A stretch of DNA of 42,360 nucleotides from a virus. Made by a program: the position numbers and the translations under genes. Numbering within the stretch: position 1 is the stretch's first letter; the number at the start of each line of letters is the position of its first letter. This document shows, one piece after another, positions 12,900 through 38,042 of this stretch. The notes beneath the pieces are model-generated. The model ran no database searches. It was not told where the DNA came from and saw only the letters and a program-made list of their open reading frames with translations. Location of the stretch: positions 1-42,360 of the IMG/VR virus record IMGVR_UViG_3300031951_000384. One strand, written 5' to 3'.

Positions 12900-12903
12900 A
12901 CAG

Positions 12904-12977
12904 TGCCGGGTACGGGAGTTGAACCCGTCTACCGGTGTTTATAAGACACCTTGCGTCAACCGGACGCATCACCCGGC
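12904..12977 (-). tRNA. tRNA-Ile (anticodon UAU)
   Basis: A complete 74-base cloverleaf on the minus strand: acceptor GCCGGGT/ACCCGGC, D stem TGCGT/ACGCA, anticodon stem GGTGT/ACACC with loop CTTATAA giving anticodon UAU, T arm ACGGG-TTCAACT-CCCGT, discriminator A. CCA is not encoded. UAU reads AUA directly; most bacteria instead use a CAU tRNA modified with lysidine, so this is an uncommon phage supplement for AUA codons. The glycosyltransferase stop codon shares its first base. Confidence 0.9.
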
Positions 12978-13732
12978 TAGCGGGGGCGCAACCATGTTTG
13001 CGGGCAGCGCCGTGTCTTTATATACTCAGGGTACGTATTGTCAATGTCAACAGGTATGAGTTTTTCACCAAGAACATGATACCCATCAGTATACAGCTTC
13101 CCACCCATTTGTCGAATATATTCTTGAATATGTGTTTCAGTGTGGGAAAAAGAAGCTGCTTTTAATTTTATAAACTCTTCGCCACCCAGCCAAGTAAAGT
13201 GCCAACCGTTGGCTACCGACCTAGTAGTCGTGCGCATTCGCCTCCACGCGCTTATACTCAAGTTATTTAAAGTCTTTTTGTGACTAACTACAATTCCAGT
13301 AATTGTTTCTGGGTGTTCCCAATCAACAGCCATAGAATAGAACGCATGATCAAGCACGATTATTTCCCCATAACGCAGGGTGTTAGGTAAGTTTGTAATA
13401 AACTCTCTAGTCGGTATTTCGTCTACGTCACCGTGTAGGATAATTGTGTCGTCACTAAGTTCTTGTAAATACGTTTTTAAAGAATCCCTAGCGGCGTACT
13501 CCCTTTCCCATGGATTGTCGGTTATTGGGAGTTCTGCTTCAATATAGACAATTTTATCGGACCACTCTTTAAACCGATCTAAGTTATTTTTGTATATTAG
13601 GGGTTTTGAAGATCCTTGAAAAGTTACTGAAGATTCAATAAGATAAAACTTGTCAACTACATCGTAGAGCTCAATTAGGCGGCACTCAAGCATGTCAAGT
13701 TCCCAGCCAAATAAAAAGCTATCAACAATCAT
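12977..13732 (-). CDS. Glycosyltransferase, family GT17-like
   Basis: 251 residues. The start MIVDSFLFGWELDMLECRLIEL and the following DKFYLIESSVTFQG, KPLIYKNN and DDTIILHGDVDEIPTREF match the GT17 family (beta-1,4-N-acetylglucosaminyltransferase III-like), where the acidic GDVDEIP motif at ~100-106 binds the nucleotide sugar and metal. A later WHFTWLGG is also typical. Soluble, no signal. It follows the methyltransferase gene with a four-base overlap. Probable role: adding a sugar to virion protein, DNA or host surface structures; acceptor unknown. Confidence 0.8.
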   Translation of the reverse strand: MIVDSFLFGWELDMLECRLIELYDVVDKFYLIESSVTFQGSSKPLIYKNNLDRFKEWSDKIVYIEAELPITDNPWEREYAARDSLKTYLQELSDDTIILHGDVDEIPTREFITNLPNTLRYGEIIVLDHAFYSMAVDWEHPETITGIVVSHKKTLNNLSISAWRRMRTTTRSVANGWHFTWLGGEEFIKLKAASFSHTETHIQEYIRQMGGKLYTDGYHVLGEKLIPVDIDNTYPEYIKTRRCPQTWLRPR

Positions 13733-19335: not shown

Positions 19336-19408
19336 GGGGCGTTAGCTCAGTGGTTAGAGCAGGGAACTCATAATTCCTCGGTCGTAGGTTCGATCCCTAC
19401 ACGCCCCA
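19336..19408 (+). tRNA. tRNA-Met (anticodon CAU; Ile2 cannot be excluded)
   Basis: A 73-base cloverleaf: acceptor GGGGCGT/ACGCCCC, D arm GCTC-AGTGGTTA-GAGC, anticodon stem GGGAA/TTCCT (one G-U) with loop CTCATAA, T arm GTAGG-TTCGATC-CCTAC, discriminator A. CCA is not encoded. CAU reads AUG; the acceptor begins with G-C, and the anticodon-loop context is like elongator Met. If C34 were lysidine-modified it would read AUA, but the phage has its own UAU tRNA for that codon. Confidence 0.9.
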
Positions 19409-19434
19409 CTCCACTAACAGAAAGGGGGCGCAAA

Positions 19435-20183: not shown

Positions 20184-20256
20184 GCACCAGTAGCTCAATG
20201 GATAGAGCAACAGACTTCTAATCTGTAGGTTGTAGGTTCGACCCCTGCCTGGTGCG
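20184..20256 (+). tRNA. tRNA-Arg (anticodon UCU)
   Basis: Cloverleaf of 73 bases: acceptor GCACCAG/CTGGTGC, D arm GCTC-AATGGATA-GAGC, anticodon stem ACAGA/TCTGT with loop CTTCTAA giving UCU, T arm GTAGG-TTCGACC-CCTGC (one G-U), discriminator G. It decodes AGA (and AGG by wobble), codons that are rare in GC-rich actinobacterial hosts but used by this AT-richer phage. Confidence 0.95.
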
Positions 20257-20261
20257 CTGGT

Positions 20262-22589: not shown

Positions 22590-23876
22590 ATGGCAAGTAC
22601 CAAAGAATTGCGAGAAGGCATGCGAGTGGTGGGTAAGTACCCGCCGTTCAAGAATGCCGAAGGCACAATCACACGGGCGACGTTGATGCCTGGTGGCCCC
22701 GGTAGCAAGATCGAAGTGACGTTCGATGATCCGTTGCTGGGCGTCGTTGAGATCCTGCCCAAGGGCGTTGTAATCCTGGGACGTTCCAACGTCGCAAACG
22801 CCGCCCCGTCCAATGCCCCTCAGCCCTCCAACGGAGTGGTCGTCAGCAACCTGCGAATCGAATCGTTGGATGATCCGGCGCTCGATCCGTTCCGACCGAA
22901 CATCGACCCCAAGAACTACGTATCCCGTACTCTTGCAGGAGACCTCACCGACATTGACGTGATGATGAAGTACTTCAATCGTCGTGACGAGAATGACGGA
23001 TATCCGGTGTCTGTCGCCCTTGTGGGTGACACTCAGTCAGGTAAGACATACTTGGCTCAAGTGATGGCATTCAAGGTTGCTGAACAGCTTGGCCTTGACA
23101 AGCCGTTGCCGGTGTTCACACTTGCCGGTTCGTCGGCAATCACTGACCATGACTTGTTCGGCCAGTACCGACCGGTGGTCGTCAACGGTCAGGAGCAGTT
23201 GGTGTGGATGGAGGGTATCGTTGCCCTCGCGGCCCGTATCGGTGGCATCCTCTACCTTGACGAGGTGAATGCAATGTCCGGTGCTGTTACCGCGGCTATT
23301 CACCCGTTGCTGGACAACCGTCACCAGTTCGTCAACATCCGCAAGCCGGTGTGGGACGGACGAGTGTTCACTGATCCGGTGACTGGAGTGGAAACCCATG
23401 AGGGTTCGTTCCGTCCCGAAATCGTGCATGCCGACAAGAACTTGTGGATTCTTTCCTCTTGGAATCCCGGCTATGCTGGTATGTCCAAGACCAACGAAGC
23501 GTTTGCTAACCGCTTCAAGCTGCTGGAGTGGAACTACGACGAGGATGTGGAAAAGAAACTGATCAAGTCTCCTGCTATCCGCTTGCTTGGTCAGGCATTG
23601 CGTAATGCTCGCGCACAGCGTAGCATCGTCACCCCAGTGGGTACCAGAGCGTTGCAGTTGCTTGAAGGTGACTTGGTTCACCTTGGAGTTGACTTCAGCT
23701 TGTGGGCGTTCATGGGCCAGTTCGTCTCGCAAAACGAGAAGATCGTGGTATCCGAAATCATCAAGGACCGTGGTATCGAAGAGATGCTTCGTGCGGAATT
23801 TGAGCCTCAGCCTGAAGAACCAACCACCAGTGACGTGGTGGAAAATGTAACCTCAGAATTCAACCTGTCTCTCTGA
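22590..23876 (+). CDS. MoxR/CobS-type AAA+ ATPase
   Basis: 428 residues, AAGGAA upstream of ATG. Residues ~10-65 form a small beta barrel (GMRVVGKYPPFKNAEGTITR), then a linker, then the AAA+ core: Walker A GDTQSGKT at 146-153, Walker B ILYLDEVN at 220-227, sensor-1 region SSWNPG at 289-294, arginine-finger-like NEAFANRFK at 302-310. The C-terminal lid follows (to ~400) and the tail is acidic. These are MoxR/RavA/CobS clade hallmarks, AAA+ machines that work with VWA-domain partners on protein assemblies or metal-chelatase complexes. The next gene encodes exactly such a partner. CobS-like cobaltochelatase identity is possible but nothing else of the cobalamin pathway is seen. Confidence 0.9.
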   Translation: MASTKELREGMRVVGKYPPFKNAEGTITRATLMPGGPGSKIEVTFDDPLLGVVEILPKGVVILGRSNVANAAPSNAPQPSNGVVVSNLRIESLDDPALDPFRPNIDPKNYVSRTLAGDLTDIDVMMKYFNRRDENDGYPVSVALVGDTQSGKTYLAQVMAFKVAEQLGLDKPLPVFTLAGSSAITDHDLFGQYRPVVVNGQEQLVWMEGIVALAARIGGILYLDEVNAMSGAVTAAIHPLLDNRHQFVNIRKPVWDGRVFTDPVTGVETHEGSFRPEIVHADKNLWILSSWNPGYAGMSKTNEAFANRFKLLEWNYDEDVEKKLIKSPAIRLLGQALRNARAQRSIVTPVGTRALQLLEGDLVHLGVDFSLWAFMGQFVSQNEKIVVSEIIKDRGIEEMLRAEFEPQPEEPTTSDVVENVTSEFNLSL

Positions 23877-23892
23877 ATAGAAAGGTACAAGA

Positions 23893-26235
23893 GTGACTAC
23901 CAAAAAACCAAAGATAGACCCTGAGATTCTCAAACGCAGAAATGCCGAGAGAGCATCAGCCAACCGAGAGCGTAAGCGCATCGAAGAATCACATCGTGAA
24001 TCAGTATTGTCGATGATCGCTCACGACAACTACAACGACAAGTTGTACACACCTTCGGTGTTTCGTCCTGGTATGAGTGAGTCATACTGGGACCAAGACC
24101 GGACGGCACTGTGGCGTAGACAGACTTCCGCTCTGGCTTATGTCCTTGGTCAGCGTGCACAGTCAGTTCTAACGTCGTTTGGAATCAACCCCAGCGTAAC
24201 CGTTACTGAAGATACCAGTTTGGATATGCCTGTCATAGCGTGTACAAACTTCAAAGACATCGAAATACTGGTTAACCTCAACAAAGTTGATTTCAAAGAC
24301 ATGGAATCAGTTGCGGAGGTACTTATGGCCATCAAGGGTGTGGTGTACCACGAAGGTGGTCACATACTCCACACACTTGGGTTCGATGTGTTGTTTGACT
24401 GTGCGTTGATGGACAACAAGGTTGAACCAATCTCTATTGTGCGCCACGCACGTTGGGGTGGCGACTACATGCAAGAGACTTACCCTGCTTACAAAGGCGA
24501 AGAAAGTGAGTTTAGGTCTCCGTACGTGTCAATGGCAGAGCCGATCGACAAAGTGGTTTCCGAGAACATACGTATTGTGCCTGACGGACGATCTGATTCA
24601 GTAGACGAAGCCAGATACAGCCTGCATGAGCACTATCGCCAATTCGGTAAGGTCAAGGATTGGGTTAGACCAGCGTGGAATTGTCTGGAGGACGGCCGTA
24701 TGGAGGACATAGTGGTTCGCAATACTCCGTCCATGGCTGGCTATCTGGAAGCAGTGACACTCAAACTGATCGTAGAGCCGTCGAAACACCCAGGTTCTGT
24801 TTGGCCCATGATTGCGTCTCGCACGTATCTTTCCGATGATGTGTATCACATGATCAAGGAGTTGGCTGTTGAGTACCTTGAACAACAAGGTAAGCCGCTG
24901 GAGATGATTGAAGAGTGTGAAGAGTTGGTGCGCAAGTTTAGAAGATCAACAACCCCCACTGAAGTGGTTGTATCTTCGTGGGAGTTTGCCACTTTCCTGC
25001 ACAGATGGGTGTCCAATGAGAACACCACACCCAAGCCACCGCATGGTGGTGGTCGTTGGACCAGAGGTGAAAATAGGGATAATCACAAGAGTTCACAAGA
25101 ACCCAAAGGAGCATCTTCACCTGGTGAACACCCAGAAGGTATCAACAATAATACTGAGATCACCGAGAAGCCCAAGTTTGAGAACGAAGAAATAGATCCT
25201 CAGTCTACGAACAAGGGACGGACAGCTGGTTCTGGAAGCCAACAAAGTCAAGAGACTGGTGAAGGTGAAGGACAAGGTAGTCCAACCAAATCAGACAAGC
25301 CTTCCCTTAGCGATCAAGGAGGTAAGGGAGAAGACAAGGAAGACTCTAGACCACTTGATCGTGGTGCTGGGTCTGATGGAACCGGTGGGCAAATCAAGCA
25401 CAATGTCAACTACGCTGAGTTGCGTAAGCAACTTAAGGATAGAATCATTAAGGCGACTAAGAGTGTGTCCAGTGTTACTGACGCTGAGCAGTTTATGAGT
25501 GATGTGAACAAGGAGCTGTCAAAGCCTCTTATCCGAACTCAGGCAACGACAGCGTTGAGCAACGAACTGATTGACAAAGCAAACAAAGTTGCCGGTGCAA
25601 TGCTCAATGCACTCGCTCCTCTAGCAGTGACCGCTGACCCAGCGTGGCGGTTCCGTCAGGAAAATGGTGTCTTGGACCCAGTGTCCTACAAGACTCATGA
25701 ACCAGGCGACAGCGACTATTGGATTGACTACGAGGGTGAAGGCTCGACTGGCCATAGCCTTTCGGTGTCTGTGTTGCTTGACACGTCGGGGTCGATGGAT
25801 GCATGGATGGATGAGTTGTCGGTCGCAGCGTATGGTATTCGTCTTGCGTGCGATAGTTTGGAAATTCCTTGCACTGTTTCAACATTCGACACAGATGCCT
25901 ATATGCTGTACCCGCACGAAGAAAATGTGGCACCATTGCTCATACACGACGGTGGCGGTACAAACCCGAGAGCTGCTTTGAAGCAGGTGGAAAACCAGAA
26001 AGCAGGAAAGCAACGACAGCTGGTCGTCGTGTTGACAGACGGTGCATGGTCTGACGTCAAGTCAATCAAACCGTTCGTGCAACCAGGACAGTACTGGGTG
26101 TTGACCGCTCTTGGCGACGGTGCATATGCAGGTACCTTCGTGGAAGGTAAAGGTGCTGACGTAACTTTGGTCATCAATGATGTGGCAGAGTTGCCGAAGA
26201 AGGTTGAGCAATCCCTATCAAATTTCCTAGCATAG
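23893..26235 (+). CDS. HExxH metallopeptidase-like and VWA-domain protein (CobT/ViaA-like partner)
   Basis: 780 residues, GTG start. Residues ~1-40 are basic and coiled. At 153-157 lies HEGGH inside VVYHEGGHILHT, a zincin-type HExxH site with Glu154; NCLEDGRMED at 263-272 supplies acidic residues that could give the third ligand, as in VWA-linked and CobT-like proteins. Residues ~385-500 are a Gly/Ser/Lys-rich linker. The C-terminal VWA domain (~625-780) has complete MIDAS residues: DTSGS at 630-634, Thr690 in GGGTNP, Asp716 in LTDGAW. It is 16 bases after the MoxR gene. Together they would form a chaperone or remodelling complex, possibly with protease activity. Confidence 0.9.
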   Translation: MTTKKPKIDPEILKRRNAERASANRERKRIEESHRESVLSMIAHDNYNDKLYTPSVFRPGMSESYWDQDRTALWRRQTSALAYVLGQRAQSVLTSFGINPSVTVTEDTSLDMPVIACTNFKDIEILVNLNKVDFKDMESVAEVLMAIKGVVYHEGGHILHTLGFDVLFDCALMDNKVEPISIVRHARWGGDYMQETYPAYKGEESEFRSPYVSMAEPIDKVVSENIRIVPDGRSDSVDEARYSLHEHYRQFGKVKDWVRPAWNCLEDGRMEDIVVRNTPSMAGYLEAVTLKLIVEPSKHPGSVWPMIASRTYLSDDVYHMIKELAVEYLEQQGKPLEMIEECEELVRKFRRSTTPTEVVVSSWEFATFLHRWVSNENTTPKPPHGGGRWTRGENRDNHKSSQEPKGASSPGEHPEGINNNTEITEKPKFENEEIDPQSTNKGRTAGSGSQQSQETGEGEGQGSPTKSDKPSLSDQGGKGEDKEDSRPLDRGAGSDGTGGQIKHNVNYAELRKQLKDRIIKATKSVSSVTDAEQFMSDVNKELSKPLIRTQATTALSNELIDKANKVAGAMLNALAPLAVTADPAWRFRQENGVLDPVSYKTHEPGDSDYWIDYEGEGSTGHSLSVSVLLDTSGSMDAWMDELSVAAYGIRLACDSLEIPCTVSTFDTDAYMLYPHEENVAPLLIHDGGGTNPRAALKQVENQKAGKQRQLVVVLTDGAWSDVKSIKPFVQPGQYWVLTALGDGAYAGTFVEGKGADVTLVINDVAELPKKVEQSLSNFLA

Positions 26236-26243
26236 GAGGAAAC

Positions 26244-26519
26244 GTGGAATGGTCAGAAGTATCTGACGTGGAAGAAGACAACGAACTTCCCAAAGTAATC
26301 AACGTCCTACGAATGGTTAGTTACTCTGTAGAAGAGGCGCTAACTAGTCTGCAGGAGTTTGGGGAGTACCCAGAACCAACGATAGAGGATGTTATGAACG
26401 TCGTGGCAACGTGGGCGAGCGAAGACTTTGGGTGTGATTGGAATCATCCGGTAGACCCAACAAAACTTGTCTACACCGACGAGTACAACAACATACTCTA
26501 TGCTCCAGGTGAGGCATGA
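26244..26519 (+). CDS. Hypothetical acidic 91-residue protein
   Basis: GTG start at 26244 with AGGAGG upstream. MEWSEVSDVEEDNELPKVIN is acidic, followed by a helix-rich part (MVSYSVEEALTSLQEFGEYP) and a Trp/Asp segment with one Cys (WASEDFGCDWNHPVDPTKL). It overlaps the helicase start by ATGA. It may be a regulator or subunit of the MoxR/VWA or helicase genes; no family recognised. Confidence 0.6.
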   Translation: MEWSEVSDVEEDNELPKVINVLRMVSYSVEEALTSLQEFGEYPEPTIEDVMNVVATWASEDFGCDWNHPVDPTKLVYTDEYNNILYAPGEA

Positions 26520-27976
26520 GACAGCCTAGACCGGCAATCGTGCCGCCGTCCAACCAGCTAGTTCTACCGTCCCTCAACATAAGCCTGTACGACTACCAAA
26601 TCGAAGCGTTTGAATGGGCTGTGTCTAAAAAGCAGTCTTATCTTGCGTTAGATATGGGTTTAGGTAAAACAGCAATAGCTATTGCTGTGGCGTCTGCCCT
26701 AGTTGAGCAGGAGCAACAAAAAGTACTAATCGTAGTACCACCGAGCTTGGTGTGGAACTGGGTTAGCGAGATAAGTAAATTTAACCCTAATCTGAAAACT
26801 GCTGTACTCAGAGGTCAGTCCGTGCACAGTCTTCCTGATGCGGATGTTTACATTATCGGTAACGCAGTTCTAACTCACTGGTCAGTAGCCCTTATGGGAG
26901 AAATTGATGCAATCATCGTTGATGAGGCACATTTCTTCAAGAATGCATCAAAGCGTACCAAGTCTTTGATAAACATAAGTAACTATCTGCCTAGTGATGC
27001 GGTTAAAGTACTGATGAGCGGTACGCCCGCTCCAAACGGTAGAAACATGGAACTCGTATCTCAGATAGATTTCTTGGGTTCTAACGCATGGGCAGGAATA
27101 GGTGGTATTGGCCACTTCTATCAACACTACGCACCGTGGTCTGGTAAAACAGTAAACGGTAGAAAAGTTGGTAGGATATCAACCAATGACCTAGACCTTA
27201 AAAATCGTATGCATGACTCTTTTATGTTCAGACGTAAGAGAGACGAGGTAATTGATTTGCCTACCAAGTTTCGGGCGACCGTTACTTTGGAAGGTTCTGG
27301 CCCCGCAGTGCAAGATTATATGGATGTCCATAATGATCTCATTGCGTGGCTTGAATCAATAAACCGAGACACTACGGGAGCCGAAAGAGCATATGCTTTG
27401 GTTCAGCTGGGTTACCTACGAAAACATGTTGGTAGAGCAAAGACAGATGCCATTATCAAACATGTATCGGAGATACTGGATAACGAGCCAGGTGGAATGT
27501 TTATTGTTGCCGAGCACGTAGACACAATGAACGCCCTTACTGCTGGGTTATCTAAGTACAACCCCTGTGAAGTGCGAGGTGGTATGTCGGAGGGCGCTAA
27601 AAAAGCAGCGGTCAACGACTTCAACAGTGGTGCTTCACGAGTAATGGTTGGGCAGATTATCTCAGCTGGTACAGGATTAACACTTACTGGTAATGGTGTA
27701 AACCAAAACTATCGTGGTGTTATTGCCCAGTTACCTTGGAATCCTGCCTCACTAAAACAAGCAGAGGATAGGTTACACCGAATATCACAAACACTTGATG
27801 TTCACATAACCATACCTTTGTGCCACATCGAAGGATGCGAAACAATTGATGAGAGATTGTGGAGTGTCCTTGAAGAGAAAGCCTTTTCTACCGGCATTCT
27901 AATTGACGGTCAAGGAGAGGTACTGCTAGAGCAAATACAAAACGGAGTCTTGGACTCGTACAGAAAGCGAAGATAG
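26516..27976 (+). CDS. SNF2-family DNA helicase/translocase
   Basis: 486 residues, single-domain-size SNF2 protein. Q-like motif LYDYQIEAFEWA at ~24-35, motif I DMGLGKT at 46-52, motif II DEAH at 136-139, motif III SGTPAPN at 168-174, and motif VI QAEDRLHRISQ at 415-425; motif V region SAGTGLTLTG lies about forty residues earlier. This compact group (SMARCAL1/HARP-like helicases) is common in phages, where it acts in replication-fork restart, recombination or nucleoprotein removal. It uses ATP to move on DNA. Coupled with ATGA to the previous gene. Confidence 0.92.
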   Translation: MRQPRPAIVPPSNQLVLPSLNISLYDYQIEAFEWAVSKKQSYLALDMGLGKTAIAIAVASALVEQEQQKVLIVVPPSLVWNWVSEISKFNPNLKTAVLRGQSVHSLPDADVYIIGNAVLTHWSVALMGEIDAIIVDEAHFFKNASKRTKSLINISNYLPSDAVKVLMSGTPAPNGRNMELVSQIDFLGSNAWAGIGGIGHFYQHYAPWSGKTVNGRKVGRISTNDLDLKNRMHDSFMFRRKRDEVIDLPTKFRATVTLEGSGPAVQDYMDVHNDLIAWLESINRDTTGAERAYALVQLGYLRKHVGRAKTDAIIKHVSEILDNEPGGMFIVAEHVDTMNALTAGLSKYNPCEVRGGMSEGAKKAAVNDFNSGASRVMVGQIISAGTGLTLTGNGVNQNYRGVIAQLPWNPASLKQAEDRLHRISQTLDVHITIPLCHIEGCETIDERLWSVLEEKAFSTGILIDGQGEVLLEQIQNGVLDSYRKRR

Positions 27977-32516: not shown

Positions 32517-32909
32517 TCAAATCCGGCTGAAAATCATGTCATCAATTTTCGATTTTCCAAATCCCGTTGGCTCAGTCCAAATCGCTGAATGAACCCCATG
32601 TTCATGCAAAAGTTCTTGGCATCTTTCACAAGGCTTTGCTAACCCAAGATGCCCACTTCTGGTAACTCTTGCGACAAATATCGTTGCCCCCGTTACGTCT
32701 CCAGCACGCTTCAAAGCTACTTCTTCCGCATGGTACGAAACTCCTTCAAGATCAACCTGAGAAGGTAAATTTCTATACCGATTTACACCCATGCTCAGAA
32801 CTCTCCCACCTTTGACCAACACCGCACCGACTCTCCATTGAGAGTGCGTTGCTGTGGAAGATACGTCTACAGCGTAATTAAGCCATTTAAGTTGTCTTGT
32901 GGTAATCAT
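32517..32909 (-). CDS. Cytidine/deoxycytidylate deaminase-like protein
   Basis: 130 residues. The zinc site is clear: His60-Ala61-Glu62 in SYHAEEVAL and Pro93-Cys94 x2 Cys97 in KPCERCQELL, with substrate-pocket VGAVLVKGGRVLSMGVNRYR earlier. This is the CDA/dCMP-deaminase superfamily; in phages such enzymes supply dUMP for thymidylate synthesis or modify nucleotides. No thymidylate synthase is in the window. It overlaps the GT4 gene (ATGA). Confidence 0.85.
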   Translation of the reverse strand: MITTRQLKWLNYAVDVSSTATHSQWRVGAVLVKGGRVLSMGVNRYRNLPSQVDLEGVSYHAEEVALKRAGDVTGATIFVARVTRSGHLGLAKPCERCQELLHEHGVHSAIWTEPTGFGKSKIDDMIFSRI

Positions 32910-33970
32910 ATGTTACTGATTAAGTCTGTCAGTCTCTGTATTCCGTGGGATATGTCACGTGATTGTATACGTGACCGTAGCTCCATTCCAACATTTCTGC
33001 GATTATCTGGGTCTGACAGGTACTTTATGTGCTTCACCCAGTCCTTTGGTTTGGTTGCTACCAGCCCTACATTTAATTTTTTGTGTAAGTTCACGTAGGC
33101 ATCGAGATCTTGAGCAATAAATGGGATTCCTGATGCTGCGTACTCCAGACCTTTTATGTCTGACTTGGCCATGTTAAATGGTGTTTTGTTTAAGGGGACA
33201 ATGCCAATGTCCATCTTCATAAGTTCTGGGTACAACTCAGCTGGTCGCATATCCTCTGTTGTTACCATGTCTTCTGTAAGCCCAAGCTTGCTTGCAAAGG
33301 TTGGTGCGGAACTGTGGTGACCACCATGGTAAAGAGTTATTGAGCCATTCTTTACCATTGGGTCAAGCACACCCTTTAGTGTCTCAATGTCTTTGCTTCG
33401 GTGTGCTGTTGACCCTACCCATCCAACAACTGGAGTGTCCGTGTCTGTGTAGTTTGTTTGTGTAAATCGGTTTATGTCTACAGTGTTTTCAATAACCTGT
33501 ATTGGGCATCGTACAAACGAAGAAGCCCTATCCGCAAGATAGGGGGTACTGACAGTCAGGATTGTGGACTTCGACAAGATTGCTTTGTAGTTGTTAGTGT
33601 TCTCAACTTTGTTAACTTTTGGATGGTTATGCAAGAACGCCATGTTTGATGTGTCTAGACCCCAGTACCAGTCATCAAGATCATTTATTATTTTTTGTCC
33701 ATTTGCAATAGCCATTGGCACGTGCTGGGTAAGCCCCTCATGCATTAAACGTTGCATGTAGATCACATCTACTTCATGCATCTCGTCGTCTACAGTTACT
33801 ACGACAAATCTGTCGTAATACCAAGTGAGTGTACCAACGTGCACTTCAAATGGAAGGTGGTCAACATACTGGCCCAGGCGTGCCCAGCCACTTCCTCCCC
33901 ACAACGCTACAGGTTCTCCTGTTTTTATAGGGTGAAGCCAATCACCCGACACTATCCCTAGTCTTAGCAC
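32906..33970 (-). CDS. Glycosyltransferase family 4 (GT-B)
   Basis: 354 residues from GTG at 33970 (AAAGGA seven bases upstream); an earlier TTG at 34012 would add residues that are not conserved-looking. LRLGIVSGDWLHPIKTGEPV is the N-terminal Rossmann domain; VGWVGSTAHRSKDIETL marks the middle; LYPELMKMDIGIVPLNKTPF and GLEYAASGIPFIAQDL are the C-terminal E-x7-E-like nucleotide-sugar domain. Such enzymes glycosylate cell wall, virion or DNA bases. Acceptor unknown. Its 5' end overlaps the zinc-ribbon gene. Confidence 0.85.
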   Translation of the reverse strand: MLRLGIVSGDWLHPIKTGEPVALWGGSGWARLGQYVDHLPFEVHVGTLTWYYDRFVVVTVDDEMHEVDVIYMQRLMHEGLTQHVPMAIANGQKIINDLDDWYWGLDTSNMAFLHNHPKVNKVENTNNYKAILSKSTILTVSTPYLADRASSFVRCPIQVIENTVDINRFTQTNYTDTDTPVVGWVGSTAHRSKDIETLKGVLDPMVKNGSITLYHGGHHSSAPTFASKLGLTEDMVTTEDMRPAELYPELMKMDIGIVPLNKTPFNMAKSDIKGLEYAASGIPFIAQDLDAYVNLHKKLNVGLVATKPKDWVKHIKYLSDPDNRRNVGMELRSRIQSRDISHGIQRLTDLISNI

Positions 33971-34133
33971 GGCCCATTCCTTTGTACTCCATATTTTTTG
34001 GTCTCTTTCCAACCCCGCAGGGGTGGGTGGGGAGCTCGTTCAAGGGAACGAACACCTCCACCCACGCACTGCACTTGGGGCACTCATAGATACCAGCTGG
34101 ATATTTTTGTCTGTCTGTCTCCATGAGCAACAT
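33942..34133 (-). CDS. Small zinc-binding protein
   Basis: 63 residues; GAGGAG eight bases before ATG at 34133. ECPKC at ~17-21 and HPC near 37-39 can form a zinc finger; the C-terminus is basic (GKRPKNMEYKGMGRAKTRDS). It overlaps the GT4 start by 29 bases. Only moderately certain because the region also codes for the GT4 N-terminus in another frame. Confidence 0.5.
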   Translation of the reverse strand: MLLMETDRQKYPAGIYECPKCSAWVEVFVPLNELPTHPCGVGKRPKNMEYKGMGRAKTRDSVG

Positions 34134-36141: not shown

Positions 36142-37575
36142 CTACTCGCTAAAGTCAATAACATCCTGGATAAATTGGTCGGTTTGATTTGGCCCAAATC
36201 CCCCACTAGGTAGCTGTTTTGAGATTTCTCCAGCTTTTGTACCAAACAATCTAGAAAGTACACCAGCGTTACCTCGGGCCTCAACCTCAATGCGCATCAA
36301 ATCACGGGTGTCTGAAATGTTCTTAAACTTATCTATGAGTGAGAACAACCTATCCATCTCTGATGAGAGGGCTGGGTCAAGCCCTTGACCTTCAAGTTCC
36401 TCAGCAAATCTTGCGAACAAAACTCTGCTGGCTTGCATCTCGATCATTGCCTGTAGCACTGCTTGTAGTTGATCCTTGGTGCGTATCTCTACAGGTAGCT
36501 TGAAGCCACAATCAGAATGTTCGCGGAATGCGGGACAACGTGAGGCTAGATAGCAACTATCACACTGACGCAAAGGGCTGCTTTGGTAGCGTATTACAGG
36601 GGTCTCTTTTGGTGCTATTTCTATGTATTCATCCTGCTCAGAGCCTGTTTGTGTACCCATTGAAACTATGTTTTCAATGCCCATAACCGGTAGTAATAAC
36701 CGCTCACTGTCGTGCCGCTTTTCTAGCGGGGGTATAGCAATACTTCCCCCCCGTGAAACCGGTTTAGGTGCAGTAGGGGTAGTGGGGGGTATATCAACTA
36801 TATCCCCCTCTTCTTGGGGGGTAAACTCTGACTCGTCGTCCTCATCGCTGGGGTCATAGGCCCAAAAAGTACCCTCTTCCCAAGCCTTCCAGGACCTTAT
36901 TGACAACGCCCCTACCTCAGAAACATCGTCTTCCATGATTAGATCGTAATCTACTCCAAGTCGAATAATATCGGCCCGATGCTTACGTCTGGCAGACTCT
37001 TTATGTTGGGCTGGGTACCTGTGTAAACCATGACCATCCCATACTTGAGTTTCCCCATACCTAATGGCAGAAGTCCATGATCCAACAATAACTGCCTCCC
37101 ATGGCAACTCCTGGATGATGTCTGGTTTGCTTGTCAGACCGTACAACTTTGCCCCCCAGCGTTGTGCTAGAGAGCGTATTCTTGGCAACGTCTTACTATT
37201 TATAGCCTTGTCTGATATGGCCACTCTTCCATTCTTCTGACAAAGCCATGCCATGCGTTCTAGGTCGTCCCCATCTGACCAGACGGGTACGTACTTTTCC
37301 CCTAGCCATTCGCCGTCCATATCTGGCCTACCAATGACTACAGAAAGGCTGTCTGCATGATCTCTTACAAAGTTTTCATACTTGTTTAGATCCTCATCAT
37401 TTTCTGATGTGTACACAAGTAACTCAGCCCCACCGTAAAGCGTGGCCAGATCTAGCTCCTTACGCTTTGGCACTGGAAAGTGTGTGATGTTTATACCCAT
37501 CTTGTCGACACCATTAGCAACCAGCAGGCTTCTATGGGTTCCCTTTTCAGCACCGCCAAAGAATATCTTCATCAT
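36142..37575 (-). CDS. Large two-part protein, N-terminal TGT/DpdA-like barrel (tentative)
   Basis: 477 residues from ATG at 37575 (GGAG six to eight bases upstream; the ATGA overlap with the previous stop). The N-terminal ~230 residues (KIFFGGAEKGTHRSLLVANG, YVPVWSDGDDLERMAWLCQK, AKLYGLTSKPDIIQELPWEA, VIVGSWTSAIRYG) run parallel to the tRNA-guanine transglycosylase/DpdA barrel, where DSTSW carries a catalytic Asp; here GSWTS stands in its place. Next come an acidic and Pro-rich linker and four Cys (CDSC...CPAFREHSDC), then a helical C-terminus (~380-477). It may be an inactive or altered relative; the assignment is inferred from pattern only. Confidence 0.4.
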   Translation of the reverse strand: MMKIFFGGAEKGTHRSLLVANGVDKMGINITHFPVPKRKELDLATLYGGAELLVYTSENDEDLNKYENFVRDHADSLSVVIGRPDMDGEWLGEKYVPVWSDGDDLERMAWLCQKNGRVAISDKAINSKTLPRIRSLAQRWGAKLYGLTSKPDIIQELPWEAVIVGSWTSAIRYGETQVWDGHGLHRYPAQHKESARRKHRADIIRLGVDYDLIMEDDVSEVGALSIRSWKAWEEGTFWAYDPSDEDDESEFTPQEEGDIVDIPPTTPTAPKPVSRGGSIAIPPLEKRHDSERLLLPVMGIENIVSMGTQTGSEQDEYIEIAPKETPVIRYQSSPLRQCDSCYLASRCPAFREHSDCGFKLPVEIRTKDQLQAVLQAMIEMQASRVLFARFAEELEGQGLDPALSSEMDRLFSLIDKFKNISDTRDLMRIEVEARGNAGVLSRLFGTKAGEISKQLPSGGFGPNQTDQFIQDVIDFSE

Positions 37576-38042
37576 TCTCTCCAAGTCTTTTCTGCGGCCT
37601 TTAGGGCTTGATTATCCATCTCCTGAACAAGCGTATCCCAGTCCTTTATCACGCGTAATCCAGCCCATTCTGGGCGTACAACGTAGGGTGACGCAGCCAT
37701 CAACGTGGGCATACCAAGTTTTAAGGTTTCGGCACAGGTTATTGGGTCGTTATCAACGTACCATTCCGCTTTGCCAAACACTGCGGCTACTCGATGAACT
37801 CTCTCGGCTCTTAAATAAGAGTCTGGCTCATCTAACATTTCATAAAACGAGGGTTTTATACCCTCTTTCTTTAGCCAGTCTTCTATTGGCAGCTTGTCGT
37901 ATGTTTCGTTGACTACCAAGCAAACACGACCAATTGAAAAATCGTGCATCATGCGCCAAAGTGAAAACCCCTGAGGATCGGGCTGTCTTAGAGCCAGAGT
38001 TTCCGCTGGGCGAGCCAATACAGAAAAGTTAAATATGATCAC
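37572..38042 (-). CDS. HAD-like protein lacking the nucleophile motif
   Basis: 156 residues. FGKAEWYVDNDPITCAETLK and LGMPTLMAASPYVVRPEW resemble motif IV and the following strand of HAD phosphatases, and helical middle VNETYDKLPIEDWLKKEGIK fits the fold. The usual motif I DxDxT/V is replaced by IIFNFSVLARP, without the nucleophilic Asp. It overlaps both neighbours by four bases. Either a pseudo-enzyme or a distant nucleotide-binding protein. Confidence 0.55.
   Translation of the reverse strand: MIIFNFSVLARPAETLALRQPDPQGFSLWRMMHDFSIGRVCLVVNETYDKLPIEDWLKKEGIKPSFYEMLDEPDSYLRAERVHRVAAVFGKAEWYVDNDPITCAETLKLGMPTLMAASPYVVRPEWAGLRVIKDWDTLVQEMDNQALKAAEKTWRE

Follow-up and report, generated by a model that had tools for sequence, protein, structure and literature searches.

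The window, which is the whole 42,360-base virus record analysed here, encodes a real and well-conserved pair of proteins, an AAA+ ATPase and a partner in which a zincin-like domain is joined to a VWA domain. Judged from sequence comparison and predicted structures, the pair is probably a two-component AAA+-coupled zinc metallopeptidase and not a cobaltochelatase. The architecture is less novel than the original prediction implied, since jumbo phages were already reported in 2021 to encode a pair of this kind (PMC7824862). What is added here is the near-universal conservation of the site, the occurrence of relatives on plasmids, and evidence against the label "phage CobST".

Gene organization and predicted structures

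Both ORFs lie on the plus strand, separated by 16 bases (Table 1). The partner ORF starts with GTG, and a purine-rich stretch 5' of each ORF could be a ribosome-binding site. Immediately 3' of the pair, on the same strand, are a 91-aa ORF and then an SNF2-type helicase gene (26516-27976). The ORFs and motifs are located where the original prediction had placed them, including a 780-residue partner with HEGGH, NxLEDxRMED and a complete MIDAS VWA domain. Elsewhere, the window contains three tRNA genes, Ile(tat) (12903-12977, minus strand), Met(cat) (19336-19409, plus) and Arg(tct) (20184-20257, plus), as well as a GT17-family glycosyltransferase (12977-13732, minus; E=1.6e-26) and a glycosyl transferase group 1 (32906-34012, minus; E=3.6e-7).

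Table 1. Coordinates of the AAA+ ATPase, its partner and their principal elements in the window.
Feature	Position	Strand	Evidence
MoxR/CobS-type AAA+ ATPase, 428 aa	22590..23876	+	Pfam AAA_5 E=3e-12; phrog_249 E=5.5e-20; Foldseek NorQ/CbbQ
AAA+ N-terminal five-strand small barrel, residues 12-62	22623..22775	+	AlphaFold2 secondary structure; aligned in most clade members
Walker A GDTQSGKT, residues 146-153	23025..23048	+	K152 invariant, 62 relatives
Walker B LYLDE, residues 221-225	23250..23264	+	E225 invariant, 62 relatives
Zincin-VWA partner protein, 780 aa	23893..26235	+	ORF, alignment, AlphaFold2
HEGGH, residues 153-157, proposed zinc-binding/catalytic motif, helix 137-160	24349..24363	+	H, E, H invariant 67/67
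NCLEDGRMED, residues 263-272, helix 235-277; E266 proposed third zinc ligand	24679..24708	+	E266, E271 invariant 67/67
Flexible linker between zincin-like and VWA domains, about residues 384-505	25042..25407	+	pLDDT mostly <50
MIDAS DTSGS, residues 630-634, VWA domain	25780..25794	+	D, S, S invariant; Foldseek NorD, MDN1 MIDAS domain
MIDAS T690	25960..25962	+	Invariant
MIDAS D716	26038..26040	+	Invariant

The AAA+ protein has the features of the MoxR clade, including Walker A and B, sensor 1, an Arg finger and a MoxR-like fold, and its residues K152, E225, N292, R308 and R338 are invariant in 62 relatives. The AlphaFold2 model (pLDDT 89) gives NorQ and CbbQ as top Foldseek matches, with E about 1e-14 and a target-normalised TM of about 0.7. 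The N-terminal barrel, described as unusual in the original prediction, is indeed predicted with confidence (pLDDT mostly >90), but it is not unique, as it aligns in most relatives of the clade; Gordonia-type AAA+ proteins lack it.

The partner comprises a zincin-like N-terminal domain and a C-terminal VWA domain, both mostly above 90 in an AlphaFold2 model of mean pLDDT 81.7, connected by a linker that is disordered at about residues 385-500. In the model, three strands (101-106, 114-118 and 122-127) are followed by the helix that bears HEGGH and by a second helix that bears E266 and E271. Zincins present the same order of elements, with strands, HExxH helix and glutamate helix, and the layout of the predicted domain is zincin-like. 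E266 is a candidate for a third ligand of the gluzincin type. The VWA domain contains the complete MIDAS set, with DTSGSM starting at residue 630.

Structural searches recognize the VWA part. Using the whole partner against the PDB, the best Foldseek matches are NorD and the MIDAS domain of MDN1; among the 50 matches listed, all are of VWA type and none is a solved zincin. NorQ-NorD and CbbQ-CbbO provide the best structural matches to the AAA+ protein (NorQ, CbbQ) and to the VWA domain (NorD); NorD and CbbO are not known to have a zincin site. In BFVD, long matches are obtained with ATV ORF892 and with phage proteins under various names (VWFA, CobT-like, metallopeptidase, cobalamin biosynthesis). 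At the level of sequence models, Pfam gives a sub-threshold VWA match alone, phrog_459 contacts the partner at the VWA domain alone (E=0.04), and the zincin part is not recognized by Pfam, PHROGs or NCBIfam. A match to phrog_1314, "HNH endonuclease", falls on the VWA domain and was not read as a nuclease.

Conservation of the pair and of its sites

Relatives were collected from Gordonia and Brevibacterium phages and from two scans of IMG/VR, one seeded with partner motifs and the other with AAA+ motifs. The partner alignment includes 67 viral sequences (53 clusters at 60% identity) with a median pairwise identity of 23%, the members being 16-68% identical to the window partner. Residues H153, E154, H157, E266, E271, R310, G592, D630, S632, S634, M635, T690 and D716 are invariant in all 67. 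A lone HExxH is estimated to occur in a random 780-aa protein with a chance of a few per cent; as ten zincin/MIDAS residues are invariant at this level of divergence, the motif set is not due to chance. The original prediction had named a lack of HEGGH conservation in homologues as grounds for its refutation, and it withstands this comparison.

The partner-seeded scan demanded either of two zincin motifs, which could bias the sample, and the AAA-seeded set was therefore counted apart. Among 41 AAA-seeded loci with a clear AAA+ protein, a partner sought within the fetched stretch is visible in 40, and HExxH and the acidic motif are present in all of these partners (40 contigs, several of them nearly identical). 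The invariance of the site is thus no artefact of seeding a search with its motifs. The distance from HExxH to E266 ranges from 32 to 113 residues across relatives, which indicates an insertion between the two in the window clade.

The two genes occur together in nearly all loci examined, despite divergent or swapped gene order, and both are under purifying selection. The comparison of the window with locus L004 gives dN 0.055 and dS 0.39 for the AAA+ gene, and dN 0.23 and dS 1.10 for the partner; dN/dS is well below 1 for both genes wherever dS could be estimated. A scan of 84,980 genomes returned three loci, all on MAG contigs; it used a single strict pattern, so that rarity in cells is indicative only. 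In a Propionibacterium MAG, a zincin-VWA gene is found on two contigs (L149/L154 and L153), which are probably of viral origin and were binned along with the MAG. Some candidates were set aside. The gene 3' of the AAA+ gene in Microbacterium phage Pumpernickel (L012) lacks the motifs and is unrelated. Three loci of a distant class (L133, L137 and L138, L137 having the same sequence stretch as the other two) harbor an HExxH within the VWA domain and were not counted as zincin evidence.

Relatives in phages and on plasmids

Jumbo phages of group 2.2 were reported to carry a MoxR / metallopeptidase-vWA pair (ASV44729.1 / ASV44728.2; Iyer et al. 2021, PMC7824862). As described, these comprise a MoxR AAA+ gene and a vWA protein with an N-terminal metallopeptidase domain, the architecture found in the window pair at the level of sequence and predicted structure. 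The virus itself differs from the group 2.2 jumbo phages, with a record of 42 kb and relatives on contigs of up to about 118 kb.

In Gordonia and Brevibacterium phages, "CobT-like" proteins accompanied by an AAA-ATPase are full-length relatives with the same motifs and the same order. They are 19-24% identical to the window partner and differ from it by a shorter HExxH-to-E spacing (about 32-46 residues, versus 113 in the window); their AAA+ protein has no barrel. Cyanophages have a similar pair, formed by a "peptidase" (phrog_459) and a CobS protein (phrog_249), with HExxH, LEDxRxE, a VWA domain and a nearby AAA+ gene. The P-SSM4 and P-SSM2 "peptidase" proteins contain HEVGH together with NVLEDARIE (P-SSM4) or NVCEDVRIE, and the phrog_249 AAA+ gene is located downstream, at about 0.8 kb in P-SSM4. 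This gene order is the reverse of that of the window, and the P-SSM4 protein matches the partner family profile weakly, over the zincin core alone. Relatives of the P-SSM4 protein were found in 463 phage records.

Related VWA proteins are also encoded by 1,103 plasmids, with the listed matches mainly over the VWA domain, and HExxH is present in the three plasmid proteins that were checked. A protein of an IncA-type conjugative plasmid (HEAAH / NILEDCRIE) is encoded downstream of Bet and an exonuclease, and a conjugative Hydrogenophaga plasmid encodes a PF06213-matching protein with HECGH / NCLEDPRVE. At all three plasmid loci (L168, L169 and L170), these two included, the zincin-VWA gene is adjoined by a DUF3150 protein; our literature search found no paper that mentions DUF3150.

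Genomic neighborhood

We scanned 108 neighbor proteins from about 45 loci against PHROGs. The commonest neighbors are SNF2-type helicases (14) and DpdA-like queuine transferases (12), followed by ribonucleotide reductase, primase/helicase and Ku-like proteins, and the 25 commonest neighbor families of these loci include no head or tail family. The original prediction had suggested action on host complexes or virion assembly; these neighbors place the pair in a DNA-metabolism module and favor an early function over virion assembly. The window also carries a DpdA-like queuine tRNA-ribosyltransferase gene (36142-37584, minus strand; phrog_887 E=5e-38), which may be a sign of 7-deazaguanine DNA modification.

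Iyer et al. proposed for the jumbo-phage pair a role as a chaperone-protease of virion morphogenesis, which would aid assembly and clip structural proteins (PMC7824862). The p618/p892 pair of ATV, which lacks the peptidase, serves tail development, and ATV p892 is among the Foldseek matches of the partner. We nevertheless consider such a role unlikely, given that DNA-metabolism genes dominate the loci. In the window, moreover, the pair shares a plus-strand block with the SNF2 helicase, whereas the virion-like genes are at 1-10 kb on the minus strand, and relatives of the partner reside on conjugative plasmids, which make no virions.

Proposed mechanism

Both the AAA+ / zincin-VWA architecture and the regulated AAA+ protease put forward in the original prediction hold up as far as motifs and models can tell. 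By similarity with NorQ and CbbQ, the AAA+ protein would form a MoxR-type ring. The VWA domain of the partner would dock on this ring, as suggested by NorQ-NorD, CbbQ-CbbO and midasin, and its MIDAS metal ion may grip an acidic residue from a ring loop or from the substrate. In the N-terminal domain, conservation and the predicted helices are consistent with a zinc ion held by H153 and H157, with E266 as third ligand and E154 as the general base. In the docked complex, remodelling driven by ATP hydrolysis would then uncover a segment to be cut by the zincin, so that cleavage would be targeted. Since the pair adjoins DNA-metabolism genes, early action is suggested, and the target may be a host or phage protein of replication, recombination or defence.

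Proteins with HExxH may be inactive or hold a metal structurally. The pair could be a non-proteolytic MoxR chaperone or a metal-insertion cofactor, in which the metal at HExxH is structural or is delivered. The MoxR-VWA pairs RavA-ViaA, NorQ-NorD and CbbQ-CbbO are not known as proteolytic (PMC3893208, PMC4660213), and the related N-domain of CobT has no HExxH. On the other side, E154, a residue that would be dispensable at a site with a purely structural metal, is kept in 67 of 67 partners alongside the metal-binding histidines. This conservation of the catalytic glutamate counts in favor of a metallopeptidase, and we regard a non-proteolytic pair as improbable.

Relationship to cobaltochelatase subunits

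Phage and archaeal virus pairs have been read as cobaltochelatase subunits (PMC8651126). Phage cobS and cobT are widely counted as auxiliary B12 genes, core in T4-like cyanophages, and calling cyanophage cobT a "peptidase" was described as an annotation mistake (PMC8651126, PMC9503304). Cellular CobS-CobT resembles the window pair in combining an AAA+ protein with a VWA partner, and among PDB sequences the partner family is matched best by CobT, over linker and VWA. However, the window partner has no match to the CobT models PF06213 or TIGR01651 at E<=0.1, and its AAA+ protein matches no CobS model in Pfam or NCBIfam, only the phage family phrog_249, "porphyrin biosynthesis". HExxH is absent from the five cellular CobT proteins examined (L157-L161, PF06213 matches beside AAA+ genes), which have a pattern such as DALEQARCE in place of the phage NxLEDxRxE. 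The likeness to RavA-ViaA and CobS-CobT drawn in the original prediction is thus reasonable for mechanism, but does not extend to identity with CobST.

The two N-terminal domains nevertheless appear homologous. Two further PF06213 matches do carry the motifs, one with HESAH/NIVEDIRIE and the other being the HECGH/NCLEDPRVE protein of the Hydrogenophaga plasmid. When reduced to its N-terminal 200 residues, without linker or VWA, the HESAH protein still matches PF06213 above the cut-off (E=6.7e-9), and the IncA protein treated likewise falls just below it (E=8.6e-6). On these sequence matches, the CobT N-domain appears to be related to the zincin domain through plasmid-type intermediates, CobT lacking the catalytic motif. 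Compared directly by hhalign, the phage zincin region and CobT N-domains gave no significant match (probability 0.6%), although LED was aligned with LEQ/LEE. For the AAA+ proteins, a clade of the phage proteins with CobS is not rejected by the AU test (p=0.116), on a weak tree with long branches from which most MoxR rows were lost. The absence of CobN in 13 phage records was discarded as evidence, as the same search also missed CobN in CobT-bearing cellular genomes.

Despite the CobT match, the phrog_249 assignment and the AU result, the defining models left unmatched and an HExxH invariant in phage partners yet missing in cellular CobT make it very doubtful that the pair joins host CobN as a cobaltochelatase that raises the B12 supply.

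Implications

The AAA+-coupled metallopeptidase favored here has a wider reading, which we put forward tentatively and at somewhat less than even confidence. Phages and conjugative plasmids would have in common a wide class of AAA+-coupled zinc proteases that have been filed as "CobST" genes for B12. CobT would share ancestry with them or descend from them, its N-domain being a zincin from which HExxH was lost, and the versions on mobile elements would be targeted proteases for early host takeover or for maintenance of the element. As the HExxH and glutamate site is invariant in the phage proteins and absent from the cellular CobT examined, the "peptidase" label may be right after all. This suggests a need to revisit what has been concluded about B12 from phage cobS/cobT genes. 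Should the pairs prove active, hundreds of phages, and perhaps also some 1,100 plasmids, would carry targeted AAA+ metalloproteases, which would bear on how CobT originated.
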